NCBI RefSeq assembly: GCF_036488675.1 | Contig: NZ_CP133151.1 | Span: forward strand, 310,001 to 374,000 | From: Sinorhizobium chiapasense | GTDB lineage: Bacteria > Pseudomonadota > Alphaproteobacteria > Rhizobiales > Rhizobiaceae | Reading direction: 5' to 3' | Length of the DNA stretch: 64,000 nucleotides | In this document: in pieces, positions 31,036 to 62,147 of the stretch | Position numbering within the stretch: the first letter of the stretch is position 1 | Layout of the letters: each line of letters begins with the position of its first letter | Made by a program: the position numbers and the translations under genes | Notes under the pieces: model-generated | Seen by the model: only the letters and a program-made list of their open reading frames with translations | Database searches by the model: none | What the model was told of the DNA's origin: nothing

Positions 31036-31947
31036 ATGAATCGGGCAGCTTTTATAGCCAGGCCGATCGACGCCGTTGAGGACCCGACGACGATCCTTCG
31101 TGCGCTTATTTTCTCCAGCGAGCTGTCTTTCCTCATGGAGGCCCATGACGGGCTTTCGGCAGCAATCGCCGCTCAGGCCGGCTTCAAGGGACTTTGGGCC
31201 TCCGGACTTTCGATCTCCTCAGCGCTCGGCTATCGAGACGCAAACGAGGCGAGTTGGACTGAAGTCGTGGACGTGGTGGAGCGCATGGCCGACGCCAGCG
31301 GACTACCGATCCTCGTCGATGGCGAGTCTGGGTTTGGCAATTTCAACAACGCCCGGCTACTGGCGATGAAGCTCTTGCAGCATGGCGGCGCCGGCGTCTG
31401 CCTGGAAGACAAGGTCTTTCCGAAGAGAAACAGTTTCGTGGGAGACCACCACCCGCTGGTCGATATCGATGAGTTTTCCGGGCGCCTCAAAGCAATCAAG
31501 GACACGACGGGGGACGACCTCTTGCTGGTCGCTCGCATCGAAGCGTTGATCGCCGGTTACAGTCTGGACGAGGCGCTGCGCCGCGCAGACGCCTACGCTG
31601 ACGCTGGCGCCGACGCGATCCTGATCCATTCACGTAAGAGCGAGGCGGACGAGATTCTCGCTTTCGCGAAAGAGTGGCAGACGCTTCCGATCGTGATCGT
31701 GCCCACGAAATACTACCGCACGCCGGTCTCGGCTTATCGAGATGCCGGCATCTCGACGGTGATCTGGGCCAACCATGCGATGCGGGCTGCAGTCGCCGGG
31801 ATGCGTGCGGCGTGCGCTCGCATAGCCGCCGAGGAGAGCATTGCCGGAGTTGAGCCGGAAGTCGCCACACTCGACGAGGTCTTCCGCCTCTTGGGTTACG
31901 ATGAATTGGCAGCGGCCGAAGATCGCTATCTGCCGAAGCACTTATGA
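31036..31947 (+). CDS. Phosphoenolpyruvate mutase
   Basis: PEP mutase makes the C-P bond, turning PEP into phosphonopyruvate, the first step of nearly all phosphonate biosynthesis. The 303-residue protein has the family-defining motif EDKVFPKRNS at residues 124-133 (consensus EDKxxxKxNS), which separates it from isocitrate and methylisocitrate lyases. The substrate and magnesium region reads VDGESGFGNFNN near 94-105; many mutases have DGDTGYG, so the second acidic residue is Glu here. GGAGGG lies six bases before the ATG at 31036. It leads a rightward operon, and no phosphonopyruvate decarboxylase gene follows. Confidence 0.95.
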   Translation: MNRAAFIARPIDAVEDPTTILRALIFSSELSFLMEAHDGLSAAIAAQAGFKGLWASGLSISSALGYRDANEASWTEVVDVVERMADASGLPILVDGESGFGNFNNARLLAMKLLQHGGAGVCLEDKVFPKRNSFVGDHHPLVDIDEFSGRLKAIKDTTGDDLLLVARIEALIAGYSLDEALRRADAYADAGADAILIHSRKSEADEILAFAKEWQTLPIVIVPTKYYRTPVSAYRDAGISTVIWANHAMRAAVAGMRAACARIAAEESIAGVEPEVATLDEVFRLLGYDELAAAEDRYLPKHL

Positions 31948-32004
31948 CGGAGCACGCCGCTGAGAGAATCGCGGCGACTCCGATATCAATTCGAGGAAGC
32001 TCTC

Positions 32005-33195
32005 ATGCTTGCGGAGCGGACAGCCTTGTTCAAATCGTCGGGGACGGCTGCGGCGCGCGCTGCGGCCGAGGCGGCAGCCGGGTCGGGAAAAGAGATCATC
32101 GATTTGACTGCCGGCGAGATCTGGAGCGATCTTGCCCCGACGATCCGGGTCGGTGCGCTCAATGCGATCCGCAGGGGCATCAACCGTTACACCGACACCA
32201 TCGGAATGATAGAGCTTCGCGAGGCGCTCGCCCAGAAGATCTCCGGCCATACCGGCCAGGTCTGGCGCGCCGATGAGGTCGCCGTAACGTGTGGCGCCAA
32301 ACAGGCGCTGTTCAACGCTGCCATGGTCCTGCTCAATCCTGGTGACGAGGTCATTATTCCCGCGCCGTACTGGACGACTTTTCCGGCGCAGGTACTGATC
32401 GCTGGCGGAAAGCCCGTCCACGTGGAGACGCGCGCCAATGGCTATGTACCGAGAGTCGAGGATATCGCGGCCGCAATCACCGACCGAACCCGCGCCGTGG
32501 TTGTCAACACCCCGAATAATCCAACCGGCGCCGTGTATGGTTCCGAAACGTTGGTTGGCATCGGGAAGCTTGCGATCGAACGCGACCTATGGATCATTTT
32601 CGATGAATGCTATGGCGATTTCATTCACGTTGACGATGCCCATTGTCCGATCGTCTCGATCCTTCCGGAAGCTCGCTCGCGCACCCTGATTGTCAACTCC
32701 TTTAGCAAGTCGCTGGCACTGACGGGCTGGAGGATCGGTTATCTCGCCGGACCAAAAGAGGTGATCAGCGCGGTGAAGGCCCTGCAATCACATACAACCT
32801 CGAACCCGAACGTGATCGCGCAGCACGCAGCGCTCGCACACCTTCTAAACAGCGATGGCAGCTATGAGAGGCACCTGCGGTCGCACCTCGCGGGAGCCCG
32901 GCAGACGGGTCTCAGCGCGCTTTCGACCCTGACGCGGATTCCCGTGCCGAAGGCGACTGGAGGCTTCTATTTCTACCTCGACGTTTCCGGTCTGCTGCGC
33001 CTGAGATTCGGCAATGATGAGCCCATGACGGCCGACGATATCGTGCACGTTCTATTGACGAGAGCGGGGGTGGCCGCGGTTTCGGGCACGACATTCGGTG
33101 ACCCGGCTGGCCTTCGCCTCTCCTACGGAGTACCGCCCAAAAAACTGGAGATCGGCCTCACCCGGCTCGTCGAGGTCCTGAACGCCTGGGAATGA
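32005..33195 (+). CDS. Class I/II aminotransferase, probably acting on phosphonopyruvate
   Basis: A 396-residue PLP enzyme of the aspartate aminotransferase fold. The PLP lysine is Lys235 in NSFSKSLALTGWRIGY. The Asn/Asp/Tyr ligands lie in VNTPNNPTG and FDECYGDF, and a late arginine is present in LRLSYG. It is not the class V fold of the usual 2-aminoethylphosphonate transaminase PhnW. Its place directly after PEP mutase, with no decarboxylase gene, suggests that it transaminates phosphonopyruvate to phosphonoalanine and so drives the unfavourable mutase reaction forward. This assignment is inference from context. GAGGAAG precedes the start. Confidence 0.9.
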   Translation: MLAERTALFKSSGTAAARAAAEAAAGSGKEIIDLTAGEIWSDLAPTIRVGALNAIRRGINRYTDTIGMIELREALAQKISGHTGQVWRADEVAVTCGAKQALFNAAMVLLNPGDEVIIPAPYWTTFPAQVLIAGGKPVHVETRANGYVPRVEDIAAAITDRTRAVVVNTPNNPTGAVYGSETLVGIGKLAIERDLWIIFDECYGDFIHVDDAHCPIVSILPEARSRTLIVNSFSKSLALTGWRIGYLAGPKEVISAVKALQSHTTSNPNVIAQHAALAHLLNSDGSYERHLRSHLAGARQTGLSALSTLTRIPVPKATGGFYFYLDVSGLLRLRFGNDEPMTADDIVHVLLTRAGVAAVSGTTFGDPAGLRLSYGVPPKKLEIGLTRLVEVLNAWE

Positions 33196-33235
33196 CAAGA
33201 TCATGCAGCGGCGCCAACAGAAGGGAACTACAAGG

Positions 33236-34012
33236 ATGACGAATGCTCCCAAGACGGCAGTCATACTCGCCGCAGGTTGCGGATCTCGCCTGCGGCCTTT
33301 GACCGACCTGCGGCCGAAGCCGCTCGTCGAAGTCAACGGTATCCCCATCCTCCACAACGCGCTGCGCAACCTTGAAGCTGTCGGCGTCGAGGAAGTCACC
33401 ATCGTCGTTGGCTACCGCAAGAATGATATCCAGTACTCCTGCGGCAACCACTTCGGTAATCTCGAAATTAGCTATGTCGAATCCCCTGTCTTCAACAAGA
33501 CCGGCAGTGCCTATTCCCTTTGGTTGGCGCGCCATGCGCTGCTGACCGGCGACATCTACCTCCTGGAAGGGGATGTCTTTTTCGAGCTGGATGCACTTCG
33601 CTATCTCGGGACGGTAGAAGCAGAAAATGTCGCCGCGGTCGCACCCTTCGACCGGTCGATGGAAGGCTCTGCTGTTGTCCTAACAGAGAACGGCGATATC
33701 GCCGAAGTGCGGATGAAGCAGACGGCCACAAACCTGATTGACGGGTCGCCGCCGCTCTTTAGGACGATGAACCTGATCCGCTTTTCCGGCAACGATCTCC
33801 GCGAGACGATTGTCCCACACCTCGACGATCTCATCGGCAGTGGCGCCGTAATGTCGTATACTGAAGAGCTACTCTCCGGGCTGGTGCAGAAAAAGGACTT
33901 GCGGATCGCCGCGGCCAGATGTGACGACGTAAGGTGGTATGAGATCGATAACGAGGATGATCTGCGCATCGCGGAAGCGCTGTTCCTGACTGCCCGCAAT
34001 ATCGCGTGTTAG
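33236..34012 (+). CDS. LicC/PntC-like nucleotidyltransferase (probable phosphonate cytidylyltransferase)
   Basis: A 258-residue sugar-phosphate nucleotidyltransferase-fold protein. The N-terminal VILAAGCGSRLRPLTDLRPKPL binds the NTP. The block FNKTGSAYSLWLARHAL near residue 88 resembles the choline-phosphate and 2-aminoethylphosphonate cytidylyltransferases LicC and PntC. EGDVFFELDAL carries the metal aspartate, and WYEIDNEDDLRIAE closes the fold. In this operon it probably activates an aminophosphonate as a CMP derivative for transfer to an alcohol. The exact substrate (phosphonoalanine or a later product) cannot be read from sequence. Confidence 0.88.
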   Translation: MTNAPKTAVILAAGCGSRLRPLTDLRPKPLVEVNGIPILHNALRNLEAVGVEEVTIVVGYRKNDIQYSCGNHFGNLEISYVESPVFNKTGSAYSLWLARHALLTGDIYLLEGDVFFELDALRYLGTVEAENVAAVAPFDRSMEGSAVVLTENGDIAEVRMKQTATNLIDGSPPLFRTMNLIRFSGNDLRETIVPHLDDLIGSGAVMSYTEELLSGLVQKKDLRIAAARCDDVRWYEIDNEDDLRIAEALFLTARNIAC

Positions 34013-34035: not shown

Positions 34036-34200
34036 ATGCTTCGCTATCTCGTGAATCCCGCCAATGCGATCACGATGTTCGGCCTGTTACGCTCGTCTAT
34101 TGCGCTTTGTTTAGCGTTGGACAGGCGCCTTGGTCTCGCTGTTGCCGCCGGTCGTGGGCGGTCCTCGCCGACCACCTCATCAGCCTGAAGCATCTCCCCG
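34036..34200 (+). pseudogene. Truncated, frameshifted CDP-alcohol phosphatidyltransferase gene
   Basis: It begins MLRYLVNPANAITMFGL, clearly related to MIRYLFDAANAITALGL of the intact gene at 57797-58411. After about 35 codons the frame breaks, and the next recognisable piece, WAVLADH, is in another frame. Sequence similarity ends soon after, before the second half of the catalytic motif. It sits 24 bp after the cytidylyltransferase, the natural place for the enzyme that would transfer the CMP-activated phosphonate to an alcohol. Confidence 0.8.
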
Positions 34201-34453: not shown

Positions 34454-35242
34454 CTAAGGGCACTCGCATGGTGCTTTGCGGAACACCGACATGTATCGCG
34501 AAGATTTATTGTCAAACGGGTGCCTCAGCCAGTTTCCGTGACGCTCAAGAAGCTCAAGTCCGCTGATCCTTGCGAGCAAGTCGAGTTCGGTTGGATAGAC
34601 ATATCGCATCTTAAGCGGCATCGTCCGACTTCCTGCCGGTGTAATCCAGAAGTCCAGAGAAATAAAATGCTGCTGATTGCGGTCGTGTCTGGCAAAGCGA
34701 ACCATCGCACGCTGCTCATCGACATGCATGACTGTCGTTCGCTGGTCACGGCAGATGCCTTCTCCGACGAAGTCAGCGGTATATGGATAGCTCAAATCAA
34801 CAACAAAGCATCCGTTCGGCTTGAGAGCCTTTGCAGTTGATTTCAAGCAACTGATCTGTTGCTCGACGGTCACCATATGCGAGAAGGTGTTACCAACACA
34901 GTACACGAGATCATATTGAGTACCCAGGTCGAACTCCGCCATGTCACCTACGTGTGCTGTGACAGACTGCCCACCTTTCTTTGCGCGAAGCGAGGCAAGC
35001 ATACTTTCCGAGTTATCGAGACCGTGAACCGAAACTCCTGTCTCCGAAAGGGGCAAGGCGAAGTGGCCGTTTCCGACGCCCAACTCGAGTGCGCTTCCGT
35101 TCTTTGCAAGGGCCGCAAGAAAACTGACTGCCCGCTCGATCTCGATCGACCTGTCGAGCGCTTCTACATATTCGTCGTATACATCACTCCATATTTCGCC
35201 ATAGGCGGTATAAGCATCCCTTTCTTTCACAGGGTCGTTCAT
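34454..35242 (-). CDS. SAM-dependent methyltransferase (class I)
   Basis: A 262-residue Rossmann methyltransferase. Motif I is ALELGVGNGHFALPL near residues 52-66, the acidic ribose-binding residue is in VHGLDNSESML, and the post-I region is AHVGDMAEFDLG. The C-terminal part has mixed beta strands seen in small-molecule N- or O-methyltransferases. It is transcribed toward the PEP mutase operon and has its own sigma-54 promoter with a perfect NifA site, so it should be on in bacteroids. The acceptor is unknown. Confidence 0.88.
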   Translation of the reverse strand: MNDPVKERDAYTAYGEIWSDVYDEYVEALDRSIEIERAVSFLAALAKNGSALELGVGNGHFALPLSETGVSVHGLDNSESMLASLRAKKGGQSVTAHVGDMAEFDLGTQYDLVYCVGNTFSHMVTVEQQISCLKSTAKALKPNGCFVVDLSYPYTADFVGEGICRDQRTTVMHVDEQRAMVRFARHDRNQQHFISLDFWITPAGSRTMPLKMRYVYPTELDLLARISGLELLERHGNWLRHPFDNKSSRYMSVFRKAPCECP

Positions 35243-35376: not shown

Positions 35377-35394
35377 CAACAAAAGTCGTGCCAA
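35377..35394 (-). promoter_or_regulatory. Sigma-54 promoter of the methyltransferase gene
   Basis: The minus strand reads TTGGCACGACTTTTGT, GG-N10-GT, nearly identical to the nifH promoter core. Confidence 0.82.
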
Positions 35395-35479
35395 TTTGCT
35401 GATCCAGGCCGAAAGAAAACTTTGCGATTGCTTCCAGCTATTTAGTCACAGGCAAATCAAGATGACCTAAACACACCTG

Positions 35480-35495
35480 TGTCGAAACCCGGACA
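35480..35495. promoter_or_regulatory. NifA upstream activator sequence
   Basis: Perfect TGT-N10-ACA (TGTCGAAACCCGGACA), 86 bp upstream of the -24 element. The flanks (CAGCTATTTAG, CCTGTGTCG) match the nifH upstream region. Confidence 0.85.
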
Positions 35496-38580: not shown

Positions 38581-39306
38581 TCAGATCGCCGCCTTGAGCA
38601 GCGCTTCGCCTTTCAAGGCGAACTGGGAACGAGCAATAAAATTGCCACCGTCGTTCTCCTGGACGAACAGGGACAGGGTGTCGATGCGGTAATCCTCGGG
38701 CAGGTACGGCCGGAAGACCTTTTCCAGACGCGCTCTTGTTTGTACGCGATCCTCTTCGGCAACGCGGCCGGTCAGCGTCATATGAAACCGGAAACGATCG
38801 AGCACGTAAGGATAGCCCCACCGTACGAGATGAACGGTCTCGATCTCATCGAGCGGAGTTTGCAGCCGCCGCTGGAGTTCCGATGCAATCATCGGCGCCC
38901 GGAAACGATCGAACTCTTCTACGATCTGCGCAGCAAAATTACGCAAGGCGGGGATGGGGCTGGCGGGGACGAGCGCGAAGAAGCCACCGAGAAGATCGAG
39001 CCTGAGAGGACCTATCGGACAAGAAGACCGCGACGCGGCGAATCTCCTGATCGCCTGTTCGAGGTCGTCGACCGAAGTGCCTTCTCTCAACCGGAACGGT
39101 GCCTTGAGCGTGGCGTGGAAACCATACCGTCGCGGTTCGGACGTTAGCAGGCCGTCCGCTTGCGGTCGGACGTCACCGGCTGCATCAAACTTGCCGAACG
39201 CATCGCGGCCAAGCCACCCACTCGCCGCTACGCTCAGTGGGTGTTCCCGAGCCGGTGCATAGTAAATGGCGTAGCGAGGAGTGGATGGTGCGGGCATCAG
39301 GCGCAT
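38581..39306 (-). CDS. DUF1045 protein, 2H-phosphoesterase-like, phosphonate-associated
   Basis: A 241-residue protein typical of alphaproteobacterial phn operons. Two HxT motifs, [11 protein letters not shown] near residue 62 and FRFHMTLTG near residue 172, form the active site of the 2H phosphoesterase fold. It has been suggested to open cyclic ribose phosphates made by C-P lyase in place of PhnP, which is absent here (family context, not proven by this sequence). It overlaps the phnL stop by 10 bp and precedes the phnN stub. Confidence 0.85.
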
Positions 39307-40034
39307 GCCTCCGCCAGAGCAACCATCGCGGCCGATCGATTGCCGACCTCGAACAGCGTGTCCGTAACGGCTTCGCGCACTTCCTCGTCGTGAAAGATGC
39401 CGACGATGGCGGCGCCACGGGCTTTCGCCTCGTTGATCAACTCGACGACGGTCGTGCGATTGGCCGCGTCAAGCGAGGCGGTCGGTTCGTCGAGCAGCAG
39501 GACGGGGTAATCGACGATGAAGCCCCTGGCGATGTTGACGCGCTGCTGCTCGCCACCGGAGAAGGTGGCCGGCGCCAGCGACCAGAGACGCTCAGGGATT
39601 CGAAGCCGTGTCAGCAGGGTTTTGGCGAGCACCTTGGCGTTGTCGGCCGGCATACCGTTGGCGATCGCCGGCCCCGCGACGACATCGAGGGCACCGACGC
39701 GCGGGATGACGCGCAGGAATTGGCTAACATAGCCGATCGTCCGGCGACGAATTTCCACCACCTCCCAGGGCTCGGCGGCGAGCAGGTCGATGGTCTCGCC
39801 GCCATGCTCGAGAAGGATCTGGCCTTCATCCGGCTTATAGTTGGCGTAGAGCGAGCGCAGCAGGGTCGACTTGCCAGCGCCGGATGGTCCGTGCAGGCAG
39901 ACGCATTCGCCGGATCTCACCGTGAGCTCGATGTTGTCGAAGACGGGCAGGACGATGCCGCCCTGCGTGTGGAGCGTGAAGCTTTTGGAAAGGCCAATGG
40001 CGTGAAGCGCGGTGTTCGTTAGCACGGATTTCAT
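39297..40034 (-). CDS. phnL: PhnL, ABC-type ATPase of the C-P lyase complex
   Basis: A 245-residue ATP-binding protein. Walker A is [11 protein letters not shown], the signature is [14 protein letters not shown] and Walker B is [12 protein letters not shown]. Despite its fold it is not part of a transporter: with PhnK it binds the PhnGHIJ core. In the first step the complex joins the phosphonate to ATP ribose, displacing adenine. I chose the start at 40034, preceded by GGGAGA. It lies directly downstream of phnM. Confidence 0.93.
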
Positions 40035-40088
40035 GGAACGGTTCTCCCGGTGTCTGGTCGAAGACACCGTCTTGTGGCCTGCGTTCTG

Positions 40089-41294
40089 TCAAAAGACCTG
40101 CCGGCCTTCTTTCCAGACTCTTCGGACAAGCGGCATGTCGTTGATCCCGGTGATGTGGCAGAGATCGGCTCGGCTGCCGATTTTGATCGCACCTCTGTCG
40201 GCAAGGCCGGCGGCCGAGGCTGGGACTGAACTGACGGTAGAGATCGCCTGTGGCAAGCTCATGCCGACCGGATCTCTCGTCAGCTGAAAAGCCGCATGCA
40301 GGAGGCTTGCCGGAACGTAATCCGAGGCGAGGATATCGAGATGTCCTGTTGTCGCCAAATCCCGGGCGCTTACGTTTCCCGAATGCGAGTTGCCGCGAAC
40401 GACGTTGGGTGCGCCCATCAGGACACGAACGCCGAGCGAATGCGCCGTTTCCGCCGCAGGCCGCGTCGTCGGAAACTCGGAGATCAGCACACCGGCAGAT
40501 TTCGCCTCTCGAACATGCTCGGCTGTTTCATCATCGTGGCTGGCGATCGGTAGTCGTCGAGCACGGGCAAGCGCGACGATCCGGGCCTGATTTTGAGGTC
40601 CGATCGTTCGGGACGCGTCCATCCATGCTTCGATACGGCGATCGGCATCCTCTTCCGACCAGCCGTACTGCGTGATCTGCATCTGGCGGAAACGGTCGAG
40701 TTGCCGCGACTGGCGATGACCGGGGGCGTGATCCATCACCGAGACGAGCTTCACAAGCGGATCGTCCACCAACGGCGTGAATCGGGCCAGAACGTCCTCG
40801 TCCGTCACCTCACAGCGCAGATGCAGAAGATGGTCTGCTCGAAGCACGCCATGGTCTTGGGCTTTATGGATACCATCGACGAGGATGGGCAGAATGCGAG
40901 CGCGATCGTCTTGCTTTCTGTGATCGCGGGTCATTGACCCGATACAAAGGGAATCGAAAACCGTCGTAACGCCGGCTGCGGTCATCACGGCATCATGCGT
41001 TACGACAGCGGATAGCGGATTCCAAACCACGCCGGCCCGCGGCAGAGCATGCTTCTCCAGATTGTCGGTGTGAAGATCGATGAGGCCTGGGATCAGATAG
41101 CCTCCTTCGAGATCGATCGCACCGGGCATCTTGCTTCTGCCCGGAGTGACGTCATTGATGTAGCCGTCAACCACATGGACGGTTCCTTCGTAAACCTCGT
41201 CCAGCAAGACGACTCTTGCGCCGCTCAAGGTCAGCTCGTTGTTGATGGAGCGTTTGACCGCCACACCGCACGATGAAGTGTCAGTTCCGAACAT
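40089..41294 (-). CDS. phnM: PhnM, ribophosphonate triphosphate hydrolase
   Basis: A 401-residue amidohydrolase-fold enzyme that removes pyrophosphate from ribose-1-phosphonate 5-triphosphate. Metal ligands are visible in GLIDLHTDNLEKH, VMDHAPGHRQ and SHDDETAEH, and the late aspartate in ILASDYVPAS. The start codon follows directly after the phnK stop, so the two genes are tightly coupled. Confidence 0.95.
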   Translation of the reverse strand: MFGTDTSSCGVAVKRSINNELTLSGARVVLLDEVYEGTVHVVDGYINDVTPGRSKMPGAIDLEGGYLIPGLIDLHTDNLEKHALPRAGVVWNPLSAVVTHDAVMTAAGVTTVFDSLCIGSMTRDHRKQDDRARILPILVDGIHKAQDHGVLRADHLLHLRCEVTDEDVLARFTPLVDDPLVKLVSVMDHAPGHRQSRQLDRFRQMQITQYGWSEEDADRRIEAWMDASRTIGPQNQARIVALARARRLPIASHDDETAEHVREAKSAGVLISEFPTTRPAAETAHSLGVRVLMGAPNVVRGNSHSGNVSARDLATTGHLDILASDYVPASLLHAAFQLTRDPVGMSLPQAISTVSSVPASAAGLADRGAIKIGSRADLCHITGINDMPLVRRVWKEGRQVF

Positions 41295-42092
41295 CTAAAG
41301 CACCGATGATACTAAAAGTTGGGTGTAGGCGTGATGCGGATCATCCAGGACCTGGTCTGCCAGACCGGTCTCCACAATGTTGCCCCGCCACATGACGATG
41401 ATGCGGTCCGCCAATAGCCGGGCAACGGAAAGATCATGGGTGACGATCACCGCGGAAATCGCAAAATCTTGGACCAACTGTCGCAGCAGATCCAACAGCC
41501 GGGCCTGGACCGAGACATCGAGGCCGCCGGTCGGCTCATCCATGAAGACGAGGCGCGGTTTGGTGACGAGAATTCTGGCGATCTGCAGACGTTGCTGCAT
41601 GCCGCCGGAAAAGGTTCTCGGGTGGTGATCGATGCGCCGCAGGTCAATCTCGACCCGGGCCAGCCAATTCTGAGCCTCTTCGCGTATGCGGCCATAGTGC
41701 CGGGCACCGATGGCCATCGGTCGCTCGCCTATGTTGCCTCCCGCGCTGACTTCCATTCTAAGGCCATCGCGCGGGTTCTGGTGCACAAGTCCCCAGTCGG
41801 TACGCATCAGCTTGCGTCGTTCTGGCTCTGACAAGGTCAGAATATCCGTTGGCCCCTTGTCATTGAGGTCGTAAACCACCGAGCCTGTGTCCGGCATCAA
41901 CCCTCCCGAAAGGCAGTTGAGCATCGTCGACTTACCGGATCCGGATTCGCCAACGATGGCGATGATCTCCCCTGGAAAGAGGTCGAAGGAAATGTTCTGG
42001 CAGCCGATCGTCTTTCCATAGCCCTTCGTAAGATTTTGCACGGAAAGCAGTGGTTGCCGGCGACTGGGTTGGACCTGGATTGCAGTTCTCAT
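41295..42092 (-). CDS. phnK: PhnK, ABC-type ATPase of the C-P lyase complex
   Basis: A 265-residue ATP-binding protein. Walker A is [11 protein letters not shown], the signature FSGGMQQRLQIARI, and Walker B LVFMDEPTGGLD. PhnK docks on PhnJ of the PhnGHIJ core and is needed for phosphonate turnover. It lies between phnJ and phnM. Confidence 0.95.
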   Translation of the reverse strand: MRTAIQVQPSRRQPLLSVQNLTKGYGKTIGCQNISFDLFPGEIIAIVGESGSGKSTMLNCLSGGLMPDTGSVVYDLNDKGPTDILTLSEPERRKLMRTDWGLVHQNPRDGLRMEVSAGGNIGERPMAIGARHYGRIREEAQNWLARVEIDLRRIDHHPRTFSGGMQQRLQIARILVTKPRLVFMDEPTGGLDVSVQARLLDLLRQLVQDFAISAVIVTHDLSVARLLADRIIVMWRGNIVETGLADQVLDDPHHAYTQLLVSSVL

Positions 42093-42106
42093 CGTGGTTC
42101 CGATCC

Positions 42107-45191: not shown

Positions 45192-45233
45192 TCGCCGCTT
45201 CGATTGCAGGCCTCGGTGGGCCGGGCCTAAGAT

Positions 45234-45255
45234 GATACCTAGATGTCTAGGTATC
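45234..45255. promoter_or_regulatory. Palindromic operator before phnG, probably bound by PhnF
   Basis: GATACCTAGA-TG-TCTAGGTATC is a perfect 10+2+10 palindrome 43 bp upstream of phnG. A second copy with the same 17-nt core lies in front of the ABC importer genes at 52929-52950. Two copies, each before one catabolic operon and with phnF beside the first, point to PhnF as the binder (inference). Confidence 0.8.
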
Positions 45256-45390
45256 TGCTTTTTGCAACACTTTGATGACAAGAGGCTGGTTCAGCAGAAA
45301 AGTGTTAGTCGGAGCAACAGAAGGAAATGGCCGGCGCTGGTAGGCTGAACCCGCGAATGAAGCTCCCTTCCCGTTCGCCAGCAATCTCGT

Positions 45391-49456: not shown

Positions 49457-49491
49457 AAAACCGTCCTGGTAGCTGAGCGGAACAGTGACCT

Positions 49492-51003: not shown

Positions 51004-51065
51004 AGTGTCTCCTAAGGTTGGAGTTGTTGAGTTTTCCTGCAGGAAGCGTTTGAGAGGGGCGCGAT

Positions 51066-51968
51066 TTAGCTGCGGCTCCGGGGATCGAACGTGTCGCGCA
51101 GCCAATCGCCGATCATCGATGCCGCCAGCGTTATTGCGACGATGACAAGACAGGGAAATACCGCCAGCCAGGGTGTGGTGATCAGGTAGTTCCTTGACTC
51201 GCCAAGCAACGAGCCGAGAGAAACATTTGGCGGCTGGATACCGACTCCAAGGAACGTGAGCGACGACTCCAGAACGACAATCTCGGCGAAGCTCAGGCTG
51301 GCCAATACGATGACGGGCGACAACGTGTTGGGAAGCACATGACGCATCGCGATATGGTAAGGGGAAGCGCCGGAGGATCGAGCCGCCTCTACGAAACTGC
51401 GTCCGCGCAGAGCTTGCACTTGGCCCCGGACAACCCGAGCATATTTATAGTAATCCGCGAACCCGACGATCAGCACCAAGACAAGCGGACTCGGGCCGAT
51501 GAGGGCGACCGCAGTCAACGCCACCAATGTGACCGGCACCGAAGCCTGCGCATCGACCACAGCCATGAAGCAATGGTCGATCCATCCTCCCATGCTTCCC
51601 GAGACTAGCCCACTGAGCGTGCCAGTGATGACGCCTACGAGAACTCCGGCACCGGCGATAAGCAAGGTGGTCTGGGTTGCGAACAGAAGCCGAGAAAAAA
51701 GATCTCGGCCGAGATGATCCGTTCCAAGGAGGTATTCGGTCGTACCCCCCGCGAACGCCGGCGGCCGAAGCCGGTGTAAAAGGCTCTGACCGGCGAGATC
51801 ATGCGGTGCGATCACCGGCGCGGCAGCGGCCAACAACGCTGCCAACATAAGAATGAGGCACGAGGCGATCGCCACTGTCGGCGGCCGACGCCTTCCGGTA
51901 TTGGTGGCGAAGAGGCCCTCTTCGGTTTGGGAAGCGCTCACTCCCGGCGCGCTGGTCTCGATGCTCAT
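51066..51968 (-). CDS. ABC importer permease, DppC type
   Basis: A 300-residue inner-membrane protein with about six transmembrane segments. The family EAA-type loop EAARSSGASPYHIAMRHVLPNTLSPVIV is near residue 200, and the N-terminal DppC block YLLGTDHLGRDLFSRLLFAT is present. Its ATG overlaps the stop of the upstream permease gene. Confidence 0.94.
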   Translation of the reverse strand: MSIETSAPGVSASQTEEGLFATNTGRRRPPTVAIASCLILMLAALLAAAAPVIAPHDLAGQSLLHRLRPPAFAGGTTEYLLGTDHLGRDLFSRLLFATQTTLLIAGAGVLVGVITGTLSGLVSGSMGGWIDHCFMAVVDAQASVPVTLVALTAVALIGPSPLVLVLIVGFADYYKYARVVRGQVQALRGRSFVEAARSSGASPYHIAMRHVLPNTLSPVIVLASLSFAEIVVLESSLTFLGVGIQPPNVSLGSLLGESRNYLITTPWLAVFPCLVIVAITLAASMIGDWLRDTFDPRSRS

Positions 51969-52882
51969 CACGACCTCCCGCGCACCCGCGGATCGAGCAA
52001 GCCGTAACCCACGTCAACGAGAAGATTGGTCAAGATTATTGCTGCCGAAAATACGAGAATTCCGAATTGCAGCATCGCGAAATCGCGTTGCATGACCGCA
52101 TCGATCACGAGGCGTCCTGCTCCAGGCCAGGCAAACACAGATTCCGTCACCACCGCGCCGGCGATCAGTCCGCCAAGTTGCAGGCCCAGAATGGTCAACA
52201 CCGGGAGGATTGCATTTCTCAGCCCGTGCTTCACCACAACACGGAACGGACTCAAGCCTTTGCTGCACGCATAGCGTATGTAGTCCTGAGACAGGACCTC
52301 CAGCATGCTGCTGCGAACGAGCCTTGCAATGTTGGCGCAGGTCGCAAGAGCAAGGGTAATTGCAGGCAGGACCAGATGTTTCCACGTGCCCATGCCGCCG
52401 CTCGGCAGTAGTTTCAGGGAGAAGCTGAAGATCAGAATGGCGGCAATGCCGACAACGAAGTTCGGAATGGCTTGCCCCGCGATTGTTGCGGTCGTGAGGG
52501 AGCGATCAAAGACCGTGTTGTGATGTAGTGCGGCCCAGAGGCCGGCAGCCATGCCGATGATCATCGACAACACGAAAGCTGGAATGGTCAGGAGGAGCGT
52601 ATTGGGAATGCGTTCCACGAAGAGTTCGACCACGGACCGGTTCGAAAAGAAGCTCTGCCCGAAATCGCCGCGCAGGAGTGCGGCGCCGTACCGCACATAT
52701 TGCGTCGCCACATCTTCATCCAGTCCGAGCCTTGCCCTCAGCTCAACGCGTTGTTCCTCGGGCAGGTCAGGCGGAATGAGGAAGGACGTGGGATCTCCAG
52801 TCATTCGTGTCGCAAAAAACACGATGGTGAGGATCGCCCAAAGCGTGAACACGCTACGCAAGCCTCGCGAGATGAAAAACAT
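51968..52882 (-). CDS. ABC importer permease, DppB type
   Basis: A 304-residue permease starting MFFISRGLRSVFTLWAILTI, with AGGAGAG upstream. DppB features include VFFATRMTGDPTSFLIPPDLPEEQ near the N-terminus, YGAALLRGDFGQSF and the C-terminal PGAGRLVIDAVMQRDFAMLQ. It is the first gene of the importer operon, 47 bp after the second operator copy. Confidence 0.94.
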   Translation of the reverse strand: MFFISRGLRSVFTLWAILTIVFFATRMTGDPTSFLIPPDLPEEQRVELRARLGLDEDVATQYVRYGAALLRGDFGQSFFSNRSVVELFVERIPNTLLLTIPAFVLSMIIGMAAGLWAALHHNTVFDRSLTTATIAGQAIPNFVVGIAAILIFSFSLKLLPSGGMGTWKHLVLPAITLALATCANIARLVRSSMLEVLSQDYIRYACSKGLSPFRVVVKHGLRNAILPVLTILGLQLGGLIAGAVVTESVFAWPGAGRLVIDAVMQRDFAMLQFGILVFSAAIILTNLLVDVGYGLLDPRVRGRS

Positions 52883-52928
52883 TAACTCTCCTCCACCCAA
52901 AGCAAGAAGTCGAAACAGCTCCTACGCA

Positions 52929-52950
52929 TGCGATCTAGATGTCTAGGTAT
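52929..52950. promoter_or_regulatory. Second copy of the phn operator, before the ABC importer operon
   Basis: GCGATCTAGATGTCTAGGTATC shares the 17-nt core CTAGATGTCTAGGTATC with the site at 45234-45255. The outer left arm is changed, so the palindrome is shorter. It lies 47 bp upstream of the permease start, a good position for repression. Confidence 0.78.
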
Positions 52951-56866: not shown

Positions 56867-57775
56867 CTAGTTCCGGGCTCCAATCATCTGAATGCAGCCA
56901 TCTCCGAACCAAAATCGCGCGAGCGGATGGTCGTAGTGTAGGTACAGGGGTGCAAGGAAACGTCGAAGGTTCTCGAATCCTTTCGTGTATCGTGACACTC
57001 GCCGAATATCGATAAATCCGTTTTCGGCGTACCAATTGCGAATTTGTTGCTCGGTGAAAGCGAATTCGTGATAGGTGGGGGCCTGGAAGCGGTCACGAAG
57101 CGTGACGAACAGGTCATCATCAAACAGGCTTCGAAAGAAACCATCCTCTCCTTTAAGGAATGGAGGTTCGTTCTGACTCTTAACAGCCAACAACCAGTCA
57201 AGCGCTTCTTTTGCCGTTCGGCCATCCAGATTGTCGATCGCCTGCCGGAACTGAGCGTCGGAAGCATACAGTTCACGAAGATGGTTGATGCAGCGATAGA
57301 AGATCCCGTTTCCGGTTCCGATGATGGTGATAAACAAATGCCCACCCGGCCGTGTCACCCTCGCCAGTTCGTCGAACCCTTTGCGCGGATTCGCAGTGTG
57401 GGGCAGGACACCCGCGCAGTGCACGAAGTCGAAACTTCCATCTCCGAATGGCAAGTTCAGAACGCTCCCACCGATCAATTCCGATTTCCTGCCGAATTTC
57501 GAAAGGCGTCGAGCGGCACAATCCATCCACTCCTCCCCGAGCTCAAGCGAGGTGACCTTGGCGGCACCTTTTTCGAGAAAAGCATAGGATGCATTCGCGT
57601 TCGAACCACAGCCGGCGTCCAGGACATTGAGTCCCGCGAAGCCTCCCGGATTGAACCCGAAGTATTCTTCATCGATTAGCGAGACCAATCGGGTGAAGAT
57701 ATGTTCGTTATTCTCCTGCTCTCGTTGATAGCGATCGAAGACTGCACGTGTTTCACTTTCGAAAGCCGTGTCCAT
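56867..57775 (-). CDS. SAM-dependent methyltransferase, paralogue A
   Basis: A 302-residue class I methyltransferase. Motif I is NVLDAGCGSNANASYAF near residue 50, the acidic residue is in TSLELGEEW, and the motif II/post-II region is FDFVHCAGVLPHTANPRKG. It is clearly paralogous to the protein at 61221-62147 along its whole length (shared blocks DAGCGSNANASYAFL, QAPTYHEF/QAPTYHSF, SRYTKGFENLRRF). GAGGGAGAAG precedes the ATG. It follows the phosphatidyltransferase gene by 21 bp, so both are transcribed from the NifA-type promoter at 58615. Confidence 0.88.
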   Translation of the reverse strand: MDTAFESETRAVFDRYQREQENNEHIFTRLVSLIDEEYFGFNPGGFAGLNVLDAGCGSNANASYAFLEKGAAKVTSLELGEEWMDCAARRLSKFGRKSELIGGSVLNLPFGDGSFDFVHCAGVLPHTANPRKGFDELARVTRPGGHLFITIIGTGNGIFYRCINHLRELYASDAQFRQAIDNLDGRTAKEALDWLLAVKSQNEPPFLKGEDGFFRSLFDDDLFVTLRDRFQAPTYHEFAFTEQQIRNWYAENGFIDIRRVSRYTKGFENLRRFLAPLYLHYDHPLARFWFGDGCIQMIGARN

Positions 57776-57796: not shown

Positions 57797-58411
57797 TCAG
57801 GACCCGAATTCGTCCGTCAACAAAGCGATCAAACCGACCGCCGCGAGTGCGAGGTGGGTCAGGCGTAGCGCATTGCCGGTGCCCGGAAATTTGAAGGTTG
57901 AAAGATGCAGCACCGTCAGAAGAAACGCCGCCCCAATCAACAACGTGCCAAGGGTCTGGGCCGGCAAGTACCGTTTGGTGGCAAAAAGAAGCGCCAATAC
58001 GAAGGGGTCGGTGTTCAACGGGAGACCTCTGGTGAATCCGTCAGCGTCGAGGCCGATCGTTTTTAAGTAGCTGAGACGGAAAGCCCCAGACACGACAAGG
58101 CAGATCGCGGCTGACAACGCGGCAACCGAGAACGCGTTGAAAGATAAAATCAGAACCGCTGGAAAGACGGCCAAGTTCACCAGATCTGCTAGCCCGTCGA
58201 ATAAACTCCCAACCTGCGCCGTGAATGCTGATCGATTGGCGGAACTGTTGGCGACCATACCATCAGCGTGATCGGCCAAAAGAGCGCATAACGCGAAACA
58301 AATGCCAACTTCGAAGCGTCCGACCAAAGCAAAATAGATGGCTGTCACGGCGAAGGTCAGCCCGAGAGCGGTAATGGCATTCGCAGCATCAAAGAGATAA
58401 CGGATCATCAT
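57797..58411 (-). CDS. CDP-alcohol phosphatidyltransferase family protein
   Basis: A 204-residue membrane protein with five to six hydrophobic segments. The catalytic motif near residues 46-75 reads DHADG...AN...G-S-L-F-D-G-L-A-D, fitting DxxDGxxA(R)...GxxxDxxxD except that the usual arginine is asparagine. Family members join a CDP- or CMP-activated group to an alcohol such as diacylglycerol or inositol. The start at 58411 has GGGGAG upstream. It is homologous to the broken gene at 34036, which is next to the cytidylyltransferase, so it may supply that missing step. It has its own sigma-54 promoter and NifA site. Confidence 0.88.
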   Translation of the reverse strand: MMIRYLFDAANAITALGLTFAVTAIYFALVGRFEVGICFALCALLADHADGMVANSSANRSAFTAQVGSLFDGLADLVNLAVFPAVLILSFNAFSVAALSAAICLVVSGAFRLSYLKTIGLDADGFTRGLPLNTDPFVLALLFATKRYLPAQTLGTLLIGAAFLLTVLHLSTFKFPGTGNALRLTHLALAAVGLIALLTDEFGS

Positions 58412-58612
58412 CCTACTCCCCAGTAGCGGCCGCGAGAGGCCTGCCGCCATTATTCAGTGGCCGGTCAAGGCGCTAAAGCACTCTCAGCCGCGCGCGGTCT
58501 CTTTTACCGTCGATTTCGAATGGTCAGAGATCGTCGCAGCGTGCGGCCGCTACTGGAGGTCGCGTTTGCCGATCAGTGTGCAAGGAACTCCTCGGTGGAC
58601 GTCACAGTTCAC

Positions 58613-58631
58613 AACGCAAGAGCTATGCCAC
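58613..58631 (-). promoter_or_regulatory. Sigma-54 promoter of the phosphatidyltransferase-methyltransferase operon
   Basis: The minus strand reads GTGGCATAGCTCTTGCGT, GG-N10-GC with TTGC at -12, about 205 bp upstream of the gene start. Confidence 0.8.
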
Positions 58632-58702
58632 CTTAAAAGCGGTTTTAGTTCCGTAGGTTAGCTTTTCGCCTCCGATTCTGTCGGTTTGCGACGACGCAAT
58701 TC

Positions 58703-58718
58703 TGTCAGGTTTCCGACA
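58703..58718. promoter_or_regulatory. NifA upstream activator sequence
   Basis: Perfect TGT-N10-ACA (TGTCAGGTTTCCGACA), 74 bp upstream of the -24 element. Confidence 0.85.
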
Positions 58719-59295: not shown

Positions 59296-61185
59296 CTACG
59301 CGAAGTGCTCCCTAAGGAATATTTCCAGGTTGCACAGCATCCAAACCTGCTTCCCAAAATCATCCGAGATCGGCCGGTTGGCGCCCAGCCATGATCTCAA
59401 CCGGGACCCGTCAAGATACGAGACAATGGCGGAATTGCTGTCTAGCAGCAAGCGCCGAAAGGGAGCCGAGGCCGTACCGGCTGCCCATTGACCCAACGGT
59501 ACTGGAAACCCTAGCTTCCTGCGTTTCAAAATAGCTGCCGGAAGAACATGTCCGTACGCTTCACGAAGCGCGACTTTCGACGTATCGGCTCGTTCAGAGA
59601 ACAGAGAGATAGGCTGGACTGCCGCGGAAAGAAAAGCTGCCGTGCTATTCCACTTCAATCTCGCTCTTGCCGGCATGTTCAGAGCAACGGACGTTAGCGC
59701 GTGGTCCACAAACGGTACTCGAGCCTCAAGCCCGACCGCCATTGTCGTGTTGTCTACCATTTCGAGCAGCGCCGGCAGGTGCGATCGGACAAAAAAATGC
59801 GAAACTCGGTCGAAAACGGTCCCGCCGCACTCGTTCCACAGTAAACCGAAATGCTCCCTAAGTGCTGCATCACCATCCAAGTCGCCCAACCATTGGGCCG
59901 TCGCCAGCTGTTCTTTGAGCGGAAGCGGAAAATAGGAGTATCGCTCGAGGAACAGGTCAAGCGCCGAGACCCCACGTTGCGGCAGCCCCAGCGAACCGCG
60001 TATGAAACGCTGGAGACGAGGCGGTAGATGGCGAATGATCTGGCTTCTCTGGTGATCAAATGGGAGCCTGAAAATCTTTCCGTAACCAGCGAAGAGTTCA
60101 TCGGCTCCCTCGCCAGTCAGAACGACCTTGTGATCCTCGGCGACCGATCGCGCCAGGTGATACATGGCGACTTCGTTGTGCATTCCCATCGGATGCGAAC
60201 GCAGCATCACAATTTTTTTGACGAGATCGACCGAGGGATCGGGAGGAATAGCGACAATTCGATGCGGCAAACGGAATGTCTCGGCAACCAGCGAGGCGTA
60301 TGGAGCCTCATCGTAGTCCCTGCCGCGCACCGATCCCGTGAAGCAGACCACGCCAGGGGAAGCCTGCTTCGCGACCTCATAGGCTAGAATGCTCGAATCC
60401 AGCCCGCCCGATAGAAGCATCGCAACTGGGGCGTCGGCCACTAGCTGCCGCTCAACTGCCGAGCTAATAAGTGACGTCAGCTCACGTGAGTCAACTGGCG
60501 CAGGGTTGCGGTCCCATGTCCACCATCGTCGCACGGTCACGCGGCCACCACTGATGACGGCTAGGCATCCAGGTTCGAGCTTCTTTATGCCGCTGAATAG
60601 CGTCTTCTGTCCGAGGGCTGCTCGGCACGAAAGAAAGCTCGACACGCCAATAGGATCCGGGCGCCTCGGACAACTCGGCCATTGCAACAGCGCGGATGGC
60701 TGAGAGGCAAAGGCGACGCCGTCTGAAAGATCCGCAAAATAAAGTGGCTTAATGCCGACGCGATCACGAACGAGAATCGTCATCCGGTTCCTCGGGTCAT
60801 ACAAACCAAAGGCGAACATCCCGTCTAAACGATTCAGACCATTGAGCTCCCACTCGATGTAGGCCCTAACCAAAACCTCCGTGTCGGATTTGGTCCGAAA
60901 CCGATGACCCAGCTGACATAGTTGCTTGCGCAGTTCCCGATAATTAAAGATCTCGCCGTTGTAGGTAACCGTCACACCAGTTGCCTCGTCGCTGAACGGT
61001 TGATCGGATTGAGGTCCGAGATCGATGATCGAAAGACGAGCGTGCGCAAATGCGAAGCCACGACCTATTTGCACGTTGAGCGCATCCGGACCGCGATGTG
61101 AGAGCCTGCGAATACACCCCAAGACCGAGCGCTGATCGTAGTTCTCTTGTCCGGTTGCGCCGACGATTCCAAAAATTCCACAAAT
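59296..61185 (-). CDS. Glutamine-dependent asparagine synthetase-like amidotransferase
   Basis: A 629-residue AsnB-type enzyme: an N-terminal class II glutaminase (ICGIFGIVGATGQENYD, LSHRGPDAL, YNGEIFN) and a C-terminal ATP-pyrophosphatase with SGGLDSS near residue 259. The open frame beginning at 61122 lacks the catalytic Cys2. Reading on upstream restores CGIFGIVG without a stop, but the codon before that Cys is ATT, with GGGAGA six bases away. Translation may therefore start at an AUU codon. It follows the paralogous methyltransferase gene by 35 bp, forming one operon. Homologues often amidate carboxylates in special metabolites rather than making asparagine. Confidence 0.85.
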   Translation of the reverse strand: MCGIFGIVGATGQENYDQRSVLGCIRRLSHRGPDALNVQIGRGFAFAHARLSIIDLGPQSDQPFSDEATGVTVTYNGEIFNYRELRKQLCQLGHRFRTKSDTEVLVRAYIEWELNGLNRLDGMFAFGLYDPRNRMTILVRDRVGIKPLYFADLSDGVAFASQPSALLQWPSCPRRPDPIGVSSFLSCRAALGQKTLFSGIKKLEPGCLAVISGGRVTVRRWWTWDRNPAPVDSRELTSLISSAVERQLVADAPVAMLLSGGLDSSILAYEVAKQASPGVVCFTGSVRGRDYDEAPYASLVAETFRLPHRIVAIPPDPSVDLVKKIVMLRSHPMGMHNEVAMYHLARSVAEDHKVVLTGEGADELFAGYGKIFRLPFDHQRSQIIRHLPPRLQRFIRGSLGLPQRGVSALDLFLERYSYFPLPLKEQLATAQWLGDLDGDAALREHFGLLWNECGGTVFDRVSHFFVRSHLPALLEMVDNTTMAVGLEARVPFVDHALTSVALNMPARARLKWNSTAAFLSAAVQPISLFSERADTSKVALREAYGHVLPAAILKRRKLGFPVPLGQWAAGTASAPFRRLLLDSNSAIVSYLDGSRLRSWLGANRPISDDFGKQVWMLCNLEIFLREHFA

Positions 61186-61220
61186 GGTAGTCTCCCGCGG
61201 CTTTGTACGTTGAAGAATGC

Positions 61221-62147
61221 TTAGCGTGGGGACGGGGCTCCGACGCTCCGTCGCGCGATCATTTGCACATAACCGTCACCAAACCAGAATCTCGCGACAG
61301 GATGCTCATACTGGAGATACATCGGGGCAAAAAACCGCCGCAGGTTCTCGAAGCCCTTTGTGTAGCGCGAAATCCGGCGAGGTTCGACGAACCCCTCGGT
61401 CAGGAACCACTCCTGGACTTGTGTCTCCGTGAAGTCAAAGCTGTGGTAAGTTGGCGCCTGTAGCCGATCCTTTATTGTTAAAAGCAGGTCTTTATCGAAG
61501 AGGCTTCGAATGAAACTTTCTTCACCTGGGATGAGTTCCGCCTCTGTGGCGTTCTTGACGCTGAAAAGCCAATCCAACCCTGCTTCGACCGACTCGATGG
61601 ACATGTCATCAATAATGCTGCGAAACTCTTGATTCTGTGCGTAAACTTCCCGCAGCCGGTTTATGCATTGATACAGCGCACCGCTACCGGTCGCCATAAT
61701 AGTCAGGAATAAGCACCCGCCGGGCTTGGTGACGCGAGCCAGTTCGGCGAACCCGCGTCGCGGGTCTTCGGTATGGTGGAGAACGCCCGCACAGTGTACC
61801 AGGTCAAAAGTTCCTGTCTCGAAGGGCAAGTCCAGCACGCTACCGCCGACTAGTCTGGATCGATCTCCAAACTTTACCAATCTAGCTGTCGCGCATGGAA
61901 GCCATTCCTCCCCAAGCTCAAGCGACGTGACTCGTTTTGCTCCGTGCGACAGAAACGCATACGAGGCGTTCGCGTTCGAACCACAGCCGGCGTCGAGGAT
62001 TGACATATCCCGAAACGCGCCTGCTGGAAGCCCAAAGTATTCTTCGGTGATCAATGTCGTTAGTCGGTGGAAGATGTGCTCGTCACAATCCTGCAGCCGG
62101 TGATGTGCATCAAAGACCTTGCGAGTGGCGGCTTCGAAAGCATTCAT
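61221..62147 (-). CDS. SAM-dependent methyltransferase, paralogue B
   Basis: A 308-residue class I methyltransferase starting MNAFEAATRKVFDAHH, with AGGAGGTAA upstream. Motif I is SILDAGCGSNANASYAF near residue 48, then TSLELGEEW and FDLVHCAGVLHHTEDPRRG. It is colinear with the protein at 56867-57775; the two must come from a duplication. It leads an operon with the asparagine-synthetase-like gene behind a sigma-54 promoter near 62.5 kb. Confidence 0.88.
   Translation of the reverse strand: MNAFEAATRKVFDAHHRLQDCDEHIFHRLTTLITEEYFGLPAGAFRDMSILDAGCGSNANASYAFLSHGAKRVTSLELGEEWLPCATARLVKFGDRSRLVGGSVLDLPFETGTFDLVHCAGVLHHTEDPRRGFAELARVTKPGGCLFLTIMATGSGALYQCINRLREVYAQNQEFRSIIDDMSIESVEAGLDWLFSVKNATEAELIPGEESFIRSLFDKDLLLTIKDRLQAPTYHSFDFTETQVQEWFLTEGFVEPRRISRYTKGFENLRRFFAPMYLQYEHPVARFWFGDGYVQMIARRSVGAPSPR

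Follow-up and report, generated by a model that had tools for sequence, protein, structure and literature searches.

Phosphonate synthesis and breakdown genes on a Sinorhizobium symbiosis plasmid: a candidate rhizopine-like nutrient system

The 64,000-nt stretch of the Sinorhizobium chiapasense symbiosis plasmid analysed here (G000:C4:310001-374000, contig NZ_CP133151.1; hereafter the window) carries predicted genes for making and tailoring a phosphonate, and between them an operon for carbon-phosphorus (C-P) lyase with its own importer. An earlier reading of the letters (the sequence-only reading) had proposed that the two halves form a rhizopine system, with NifA-controlled synthesis in bacteroids and catabolism by free-living kin. 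The nitrogenase genes nifHDK occupy 0-5 kb of the window. Plasmid pEmeITTGR7b of S. mexicanum aligns to it at 97.9% identity (89% of 30.5-54 kb) and at 99.5% (54-64 kb), continuing to the right with peroxiredoxin, rpoN, nifQ and nifS genes. The enzyme classes named in the sequence-only reading are all present as open genes, as judged by family searches and the S. mexicanum annotation.

Synthesis genes and NifA-type promoters

The synthesis and tailoring genes, with their promoters, are arranged as follows.

31036..31947, plus strand: aepX (pepM), phosphoenolpyruvate (PEP) mutase, PEP to phosphonopyruvate (by TIGR02320, motif and 1m1b)
32005..33195, plus strand: AT, class I/II pyridoxal phosphate aminotransferase (PF00155; nearest solved proteins are aspartate aminotransferases)
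33203..34012, plus strand: CCT, LicC-type cytidylyltransferase (PF00483/PF12804)
34036..34188, plus strand: disrupted remnant of the CDP-alcohol phosphatidyltransferase (CDPAP) gene that belongs to this operon, reading MLRYLVNPANAITMFGL.. and then a stop
34454..35242, minus strand: MT34, methyltransferase (nearest solved protein CcbJ)
35378..35495, minus strand: NifA-type promoter of MT34 (sigma-54 element 35378-35393, upstream activator sequence (UAS) 35480-35495)
56867..57775, minus strand: MT57, S-adenosylmethionine (SAM) methyltransferase, in the same run as aepX in Mesorhizobium
57797..58450, minus strand: CDPAP58, CDP-alcohol phosphatidyltransferase, homologue of the gene broken at 34036
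58615..58718, minus strand: NifA-type promoter of CDPAP58-MT57 (sigma-54 element 58615-58630, UAS 58703-58718)
59296..61122, minus strand: AsnB-like amidotransferase (TIGR01536 over cut-off), in the same run as aepX in Mesorhizobium
61221..62204, minus strand: MT61, SAM methyltransferase akin to MT57, clustering by sequence with MT57 homologues
62501..62594, minus strand: weaker NifA-type promoter candidate for MT61-AsnB (62501-62516, UAS-like site 62579-62594)

Conversion of PEP to phosphonopyruvate by AepX is firmly indicated by its sequence: the protein scores 335 bits against TIGR02320 (cut-off 319.6), contains EDKVFPKRNS, matching EDK-x5-NS, which we take to be the PEP mutase signature, and has PEP mutase 1m1b as its best solved match (343 bits vs 194 for phosphonopyruvate hydrolase). 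AT, which adjoins aepX in the window and in many relatives, probably converts phosphonopyruvate to phosphonoalanine. CCT, closest among solved proteins to CTP:phosphocholine cytidylyltransferase 1jyk and more weakly to 6pd1 (presumably a PntC-type enzyme), probably activates the phosphonate as a CMP ester. No phosphonopyruvate decarboxylase lies among the three genes of the window aepX operon. A 2-aminoethylphosphonate pathway was therefore dropped, the decarboxylase-bearing aepX clusters also being arranged differently; their type is a Bradyrhizobium cluster (L012) with genes for an O-methyltransferase, phosphonopyruvate decarboxylase and phosphonoacetaldehyde dehydrogenase, with which L013, L015, L018, L020, L024, L025, L027 and L047 group by sequence clusters.

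The CDP-alcohol transferase broken in the window, a remnant that the sequence-only reading does not mention, is intact at this place of the operon in S. terangae (L081) and others, and CDPAP58, by its homology, can stand in for it. CDPAP58 carries the motif DHADG..G...D...D, scores 24.3 bits against PF01066 (barely above the cut-off of 22) and is 73-74% identical to the CDPAP in the aepX clusters of Aminobacter anthyllidis, Mesorhizobium L-8-3 and M. loti CJ3sym. In these three and in Mesorhizobium 131-3-5 (L073, L074, L076, L089) aepX, AT, CCT, CDPAP58, MT57 and AsnB form one same-strand run, and thus the NifA-driven genes at 57-61 kb of the window belong with aepX. The split arrangement of the window is found in R. 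gallicum IE4872 and S. fredii CCBAU 83666, and the accompanying tailoring genes differ from locus to locus.

Promoters were scored strictly as a sigma-54 element together with a UAS of the form TGT-N10-ACA. Such pairs number 80 in 1.78 Mb of loci, which include many related ones, vs 4.4 in Markov-model sequence. The window holds four, before nifH, the P450 cluster (26861), MT34 and CDPAP58-MT57, and the strict scan found none in the catabolic half. The NifA promoters previously proposed for the tailoring genes thus stand for MT34 and CDPAP58-MT57, while MT61-AsnB has only the weaker site, whose UAS-like element has one mismatch and falls outside the strict scan. The MT34 promoter sits in a nifH-promoter-like stretch (35380-35558) that aligns with the R. 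gallicum nifH promoter over 188 bp (68.6% identity, E=2e-8). CcbJ, the solved protein nearest to MT34, is an N-methyltransferase. Another nifH-promoter-like fragment lies at 8392-8529 (E=5e-17), accompanied on the minus strand by a sigma-54-like element (8545-8559).

The genes behind the promoter at 26861 (~22000-26861) encode a P450, a ferredoxin, an NTF2-like protein, an SDR and an LLM oxidoreductase; P450-cluster genes lie near the synthesis cassette in several relatives, and M. loti msi332 (P450) is nifA2-dependent. A KdsB-like gene (a second cytidylyltransferase, 54255) and a BNR/sialidase-like gene (55260) were dropped as parts of the system, the panel maps matching them in the window and S. 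mexicanum only. An IS66 element (35872-38343) separates MT34 from the phn operon and is missing there from the S. mexicanum plasmid annotation. To the left of aepX are two further genes.

29970..30815, minus strand: GntR-type regulator, divergent from aepX (weak GntR-family matches)
28798..29550, plus strand: TauE/SafE-type membrane protein (PF01925), its neighbourhood kept in S. mexicanum and S. terangae

The first, annotated as GntR at the corresponding place in S. mexicanum and S. terangae, is a probable regulator of the aepX operon; the second is a candidate exporter.

The breakdown half

The C-P lyase operon with its own importer and palindromic operators, described from the letters, was recovered in full.

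38581..45281, minus strand: C-P lyase operon (DUF1045, phnL, phnM, phnK, phnJ, phnI, phnH, phnG; by family and homology)
45236..45253, no strand: PhnF-type palindromic operator before phnG, TACCTAGACATCTAGGTA, perfect match
45391..46107, minus strand: phnF regulator (TIGR02325 over cut-off)
46157..47386, minus strand: APsf, type I phosphodiesterase/nucleotide pyrophosphatase superfamily (PF01663)
47394..52900, minus strand: five-gene ABC importer (two ATPases, a binding protein at ~49492-51066, two permeases)
52932..52949, no strand: second PhnF-type operator, before the importer, TACCTAGACATCTAGGTA with 2 mismatches

All of phnG, H, I, J, K, L and M are present and open, phnG probably starting near 45203. 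NCBIfam models recognised the products of phnG, H, K, L and M, and that of phnF, above their cut-offs. They gave no match for phnI or phnJ, which were identified from the genes annotated on the S. mexicanum plasmid, a near-identical relative; the cysteine cluster of PhnJ is present. In the window no perfect-arm palindrome turned up upstream of either phnG or the importer, and the operator was then located with a motif derived from relatives (TACCTAGACATCTAGGTA; 0.03 matches expected). Since this PhnF-type operator is common to both, importer and C-P lyase probably form one regulon.

APsf is weakly related to solved phosphodiesterase-nucleotide pyrophosphatases (45 bits over a short stretch) and probably opens a phosphonate ester. 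The binding protein is nearest to AccA (4ra1), the agrocinopine binder. The same holds in breakdown modules of Mesorhizobium 131-3-5 and R. leguminosarum Vaf10: the three proteins, only 31-36% identical mutually, score 294 (window), 263 and 307 bits against AccA and 122, 87 and 113 bits against the best other solved protein. This similarity hints that the alcohol may be a sugar. Binding proteins of S. terangae, S. numidicum and a Ti plasmid are more distant, at 25-28% identity to that of the window. A second breakdown set lies in the same genome (L091, G000:C3:1-20000), running over 0.1-13 kb from an AccA-like binding protein to phnN; its APsf is 100% and its PhnJ 95% identical to those of the window, and the only aepX match of the genome is that of the window.

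Recurrence and variation of the pairing

We surveyed 79 aepX loci (from the best 80 of 259 confirmed stretches) with 10 kb flanks, two genomes with a split nifH being counted as nifH-bearing. Further loci were picked via DNA matches to the window (L080-L083), for plasmids bearing both APsf and aepX (L085-L089), or from aepX/CDPAP lists with their neighbours unknown beforehand (L090, L109-L113, L134-L137). The association of the two halves is a real and non-random observation. Apart from the genome of the window, aepX and phnJ lie within 30 kb of each other in 8/75 genomes by hand count, one (G074) with a partial aepX, vs 0.97 expected. Full sets are also present in S. fredii, R. gallicum IE4872 and the R7A-type island, corresponding to the catabolic genes at 38.6-52.9 kb of the window. 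The repeated pairing in related symbiotic plasmids and islands, though by no means constant, bears out the co-occurrence that the sequence-only reading had asked to see. APsf is rare, found at E<=1e-30 in 12 of 72,556 plasmid records, and at least 9 of these 12 also bear aepX (among 60 of 78 aepX records listed).

Several features of the data would suit chance neighbours, that is, symbiosis plasmids gathering nif-driven metabolic genes and phosphorus-scavenging operons independently: the window contains an IS66 element and a broken gene, phnJ is present in 75/76 genomes, breakdown copies without aepX exist on another replicon of the same genome and in P. zundukense, and a breakdown enzyme is missing from the majority of loci viewed with 10 kb flanks only. 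The observed proximity, the rarity of APsf and its coincidence with aepX, and the recurrence of the full set argue the other way, as does the origin of the linked PhnJ proteins in several parts of the tree. Linkage to the cassette, or to its CDPAP/AsnB genes, holds for 14 PhnJ; these scatter with 8 changes, at least 5 of them forced (on the starred branches), vs a mean of 11.3 for shuffled labels; gains and losses are not separated in this count, long branches blur placements, and the 20 regions with unlinked copies were hand-chosen. We consider independent gathering, already disfavoured, very improbable.

The remaining APsf records vary. That of M. mediterraneum has CCT-CDPAP with no aepX found in the mapped stretch, that of P. 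zundukense has a breakdown set and no annotated aepX, and that of Microvirga VF16 has two breakdown sets, the aepX search of the fetched stretch being negative. Among the 19 mapped aepX plasmid records (the further loci named above), 13 by our reading have an importer together with APsf, PalA or C-P lyase near the cassette genes (a C-P-cleaving enzyme in 8/19), four have an importer only and two neither; importer neighbours, for which there was no background count, are not taken as proof by themselves. In L088, aepX is ~170 kb distant from the mapped cassette genes, and in the B. guangdongense and Bradyrhizobium 187 plasmids no partner gene was found in the mapped stretch. Across 199 family genomes, including that of the window, aepX is found in 5, nifH in 12 and APsf in 2; 2/4 non-window aepX genomes are nifH-bearing (P=0.016), a co-occurrence that we set aside as weak support. 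By hand count, aepX lies within 40 kb of nifH in 16/76 genomes, that of the window included.

The breakdown module itself is exchangeable, and C-P lyase, proposed earlier as the route and present in the window, is replaced elsewhere by PalAB. PalA-like, PalB-like, LysR and sugar-type importer genes adjoin the cassette in R. gallicum M101, M. huakuii 583, R. indigoferae and Mesorhizobium AR10. The four PalA score 362, 354, 390 and 367 bits against TIGR02321 (cut-off 374.4), so that one exceeds the cut-off and three fall short by 7-20 bits, and 272, 269, 294 and 280 bits against PEP mutase. PalAB degrades phosphonoalanine (PMC10574752), and these modules beside the cassette therefore point to phosphonoalanine. 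The PalAB-linked binding protein resembles sugar and UgpB binders.

CDPAP58 resembles archaetidylserine/phosphatidylserine synthases, and it could place the phosphonate on a bacteroid membrane lipid or surface glycan, phn serving to recycle or scavenge phosphorus. This would agree with the statement of Rice et al. (PMC6697681) that phosphonoglycans or phosphonolipids are specified by the majority of predicted ppm clusters, with phosphonoalanine as a phosphonolipid component (PMC10574752) and with the occurrence of the core cassette (CCT plus CDPAP) in nifH-negative genomes. A soluble, imported ester is suggested instead because a phosphodiesterase and AccA-like or sugar/UgpB-like importers are linked to the cassette; in addition, the cassette is paired with differing breakdown modules, and major facilitator superfamily genes lie in or near it in Mesorhizobium AR10 and S. 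terangae. A lipid or glycan destination is accordingly unlikely in our judgement.

Bacteroid expression and a possible nutrient role

In some relatives NifA-type promoters reach aepX itself. In 8/79 loci, all in nifH-bearing genomes, the 500 bp before aepX contain a strict site, where 0.05 such loci would be expected from the Markov rate and 0.9 from the site density of the loci themselves. The 8 are related Mesorhizobium with two unrelated upstream sequence types, each with the site ~185 nt before aepX, and L019, L070 and L073 have a sigma-54 element before aepX without a strict UAS. In G222 (L104, outside the 79) a copy of the nifH promoter leads aepX (299-bp alignment, 74%, E=3e-38), the first codons of nifH being fused in frame to aepX, and MT34 in the R7A-type island is likewise preceded by a nifH-promoter copy (366 bp, E=4e-56).

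Expression of the homologous locus has been reported by Sullivan et al. (2013, PMC3538637), with lacZ fusions in nodule bacteroids of M. loti R7A. The beta-galactosidase activities in wild type vs nifA2 mutant (the last column of the table being taken, from the text, as the latter) were 827 vs 7.7 for pepM, 2456 vs 16.2 for aatA, 862 vs 22.0 for asnB and 320 vs 11.7 for msi321; pepM, aatA and asnB gave <20 units in broth, and R7A mutants were fully effective in fixation. The bacteroid expression expected for the synthesis genes is on record only for R7A, including nifA2 dependence; the window itself shows NifA-type promoters before MT34 and CDPAP58. The R7A island is also carried by CJ3Sym, which received it by laboratory mating (PMC4572658). 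Over ~50 kb the CJ3Sym contig (L094-L096) carries, in this order, nifHDK, the phn operon, APsf, the importer, PhnF, MT34 and a HisC-like gene, followed by AsnB, MT57, CDPAP, CCT, AT, aepX, the P450 cluster, rpoN2 and nifQ. By order and product msi327, 326, 323 and 321 fit aepX, AT, AsnB and MT34, a mapping that leaves just two numbers for CCT, CDPAP and MT57; the MT34 homologue is thus probably the nifA2-dependent msi321. The predicted aepX promoter in this island (CGGCACGCGCCTTGCT, UAS 82 bp upstream, ~188 nt before aepX) suggests, contrary to the R7A authors, direct control by NifA. A paper on M. huakuii 7653R reports phnN (2.41) and a phnG decreased, in the part used here not tied to this operon.

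The product made in nodules could also be an antimicrobial, a plant-active compound or a metallophore, in which case importer and C-P cleavage would serve to take it up again, to protect the producer or to recover metal. Bioactivity is frequent among phosphonates (PMC6697681), one example coming from Pantoea, the tailoring genes vary among loci, and a Ti-plasmid cassette includes cysteine synthase, ornithine cyclodeaminase and an ABC importer. A metallophore should not need the linked C-P lyase or PalAB, which would destroy the compound for its phosphorus, and the window binding protein is closer to AccA than to nickel/metallophore binders. With pepM, aatA and asnB below 20 units in R7A broth as well, we hold a bioactive product to be distinctly unlikely. 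The Ti cassette lies on a walnut Agrobacterium plasmid (L090, NZ_CP048484.1, 8.7-21.7 kb), where aepX-AT-CCT is joined by a longer CDP-alcohol transferase, a related phosphonate cluster of bacterial genes carried by an opine plasmid; aepX is found on A. vitis plasmids too.

The reading we favour, with a probability of roughly 0.6, is a rhizopine-like nutrient system in the sense of the opine concept, built on phosphonate chemistry and derived from phosphonoalanine. AepX in bacteroids would convert PEP to phosphonopyruvate, AT would transaminate this to phosphonoalanine (from AT homology and the PalAB neighbours), and CCT, by its family, would activate phosphonoalanine as a CMP ester. The NifA-controlled CDP-alcohol transferase may then, again by family, couple the phosphonate to an alcohol, perhaps a sugar; the methyltransferases and AsnB would tailor the resulting soluble phosphonate ester. 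NifA would gate the later steps in the window and, apparently, the whole operon in some relatives. The product would presumably be exported from the nodule and taken up by free-living kin via the AccA-like ABC importer; the linked phosphodiesterase would open the ester and C-P lyase release phosphate (plus carbon and nitrogen), the breakdown set being induced through PhnF. From this arrangement we infer a nutritional purpose of the nodule phosphonate.

A number of observations weigh against the nutrient reading. In the window aepX has no NifA-type site inside 500 bp, its neighbour being GntR instead, so that the weak point conceded by the sequence-only reading persists here, although some relatives have such a site. 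The phosphonate product is deduced from the genes, and phosphonoalanine from AT homology and the PalAB neighbours in other strains. NifA sites at aepX do not differ significantly with nifH status (8/64 vs 0/15, P=0.17), and copies of the nifH promoter also lead P450 genes (L073, L074, L082, L083, L089) and nifQ (L080), and thus promoter capture is not peculiar to phosphonate genes. The R7A authors listed pepM, aatA and asnB among genes lacking NifA promoters and called direct activation highly unlikely (PMC3538637); the promoter predicted in the R7A-type island has a C at the first position of its -24 element, and the absent fixation phenotype of pepM mutants also fits an unimportant gene. C-P lyase is common, as the phnJ count above indicates. 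The core cassette is present in 57/79 loci; inside the 10 kb flanks, 26 of the 57 show an importer or a breakdown gene and 14 a breakdown enzyme; the two halves, expected together in related symbiotic plasmids and islands, are recurrent companions and far from constant ones. Most Bradyrhizobium loci have neither a strict NifA site at aepX nor a partner within 10 kb, and S. meliloti M270 carries the full pair on an accessory plasmid. Confinement to symbionts was not upheld, 15/79 loci (several with importers) lying in genomes scored nifH-negative and Ti plasmids carrying a related cassette.

The mosaic piece of the mos genes is reportedly a copy of the nifH promoter. In the mos/moc system, rhizopine is synthesised in nodules under NifA and serves as a nutrient for rhizobia (PMC6668481), and titles cited there refer to Sym-plasmid-linked catabolism and to the "mosaic structure" of mos. 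The window resembles mos/moc of S. meliloti L5-30 in its NifA-type promoters, linkage and patchy occurrence, together with the R7A mutants that show no fixation phenotype. It differs in its phosphonate rather than inositol chemistry (no mos/moc sequence search was made), in offering phosphorus besides carbon and nitrogen, and in having several interchangeable breakdown modules. The locus looks like a system that would work as rhizopines do. Nothing in it points to a rhizopine in the strict, inositol-derived sense: in the family searches made, the window genes fell into phosphonate, transport and tailoring families, and the data neither show nor hint that it is a member of the inositol rhizopine family.

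Agrocinopines are phosphodiester opines, and the Agrobacterium acc system is matched in the AccA-like binding proteins, the linked phosphodiesterase-family gene and the phosphorus ester expected as substrate. Unlike agrocinopine synthesis, the genes here are bacterial and under NifA rather than in transformed plant cells, and the predicted ligand is a phosphonate, not a phosphate, with C-P cleavage to follow. The pepM-aatA-asnB genes of ICEMlSymR7A are homologous, on an island of the same origin, bacteroid-expressed and nifA2-dependent; PMC3538637 treats them as metabolic genes, and a search of its text found no 'phosphon', and 'rhizopine' only for moc genes. PEP mutase with a LicC-type cytidylyltransferase recalls PntC tailoring (PMC6697681), a likeness that for the window is one of sequence. 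Unlike PntC loci, the window operon has no decarboxylase, places an aminotransferase before activation, and comes with NifA control and a paired breakdown set. PalAB phosphonoalanine degradation has its likeness on the four plasmids where PalA-like and PalB-like genes, with LysR and transporter genes, adjoin the cassette; the window carries C-P lyase in its place. The open-licence literature, to which the search was limited, yielded nothing linking phosphonates with rhizopines or pepM clusters as nodule-made nutrients; the four papers containing both words, phosphonate and rhizopine, were judged by title and abstract.

The rhizopine concept has so far been built on inositol derivatives, and the present system, if real, would add a second class, one that bears phosphorus. 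It is seen in Sinorhizobium, Rhizobium, Mesorhizobium and Aminobacter, and it has an importer type in common with crown-gall opines. That related bacteria have the pairing in differing versions suggests a food currency kept private to nodule bacteria and their free-living kin. Why bacteroids should feed such kin would become testable in the tractable M. loti R7A, where pepM, aatA and asnB mutants already exist (PMC3538637), and strongly nodule-expressed genes without a phenotype would acquire a role. It would likewise point to a source of natural soil phosphonates and offer rhizosphere engineering a new orthogonal signal. A broader proposal, to which we give even odds, is that phosphonate opines have diversified across at least four rhizobial genera: phosphonoalanine esters made in nodules would carry strain-specific tailoring, matched by importers (AccA-like or UgpB-like) that are strain-specific too, and C-P cleavage, through C-P lyase or PalAB, would have been recruited separately to match it as well; NifA control would have been acquired repeatedly, partly via capture of nifH promoters, and kin would be supplied with phosphorus, nitrogen and carbon. 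In M. mediterraneum (L107, NZ_CP088153.1, 7.9-23.2 kb), CCT-CDPAP with a GHMP kinase and an aminotransferase lies beside an importer-APsf set like that of the window, possibly a phosphate-ester counterpart.

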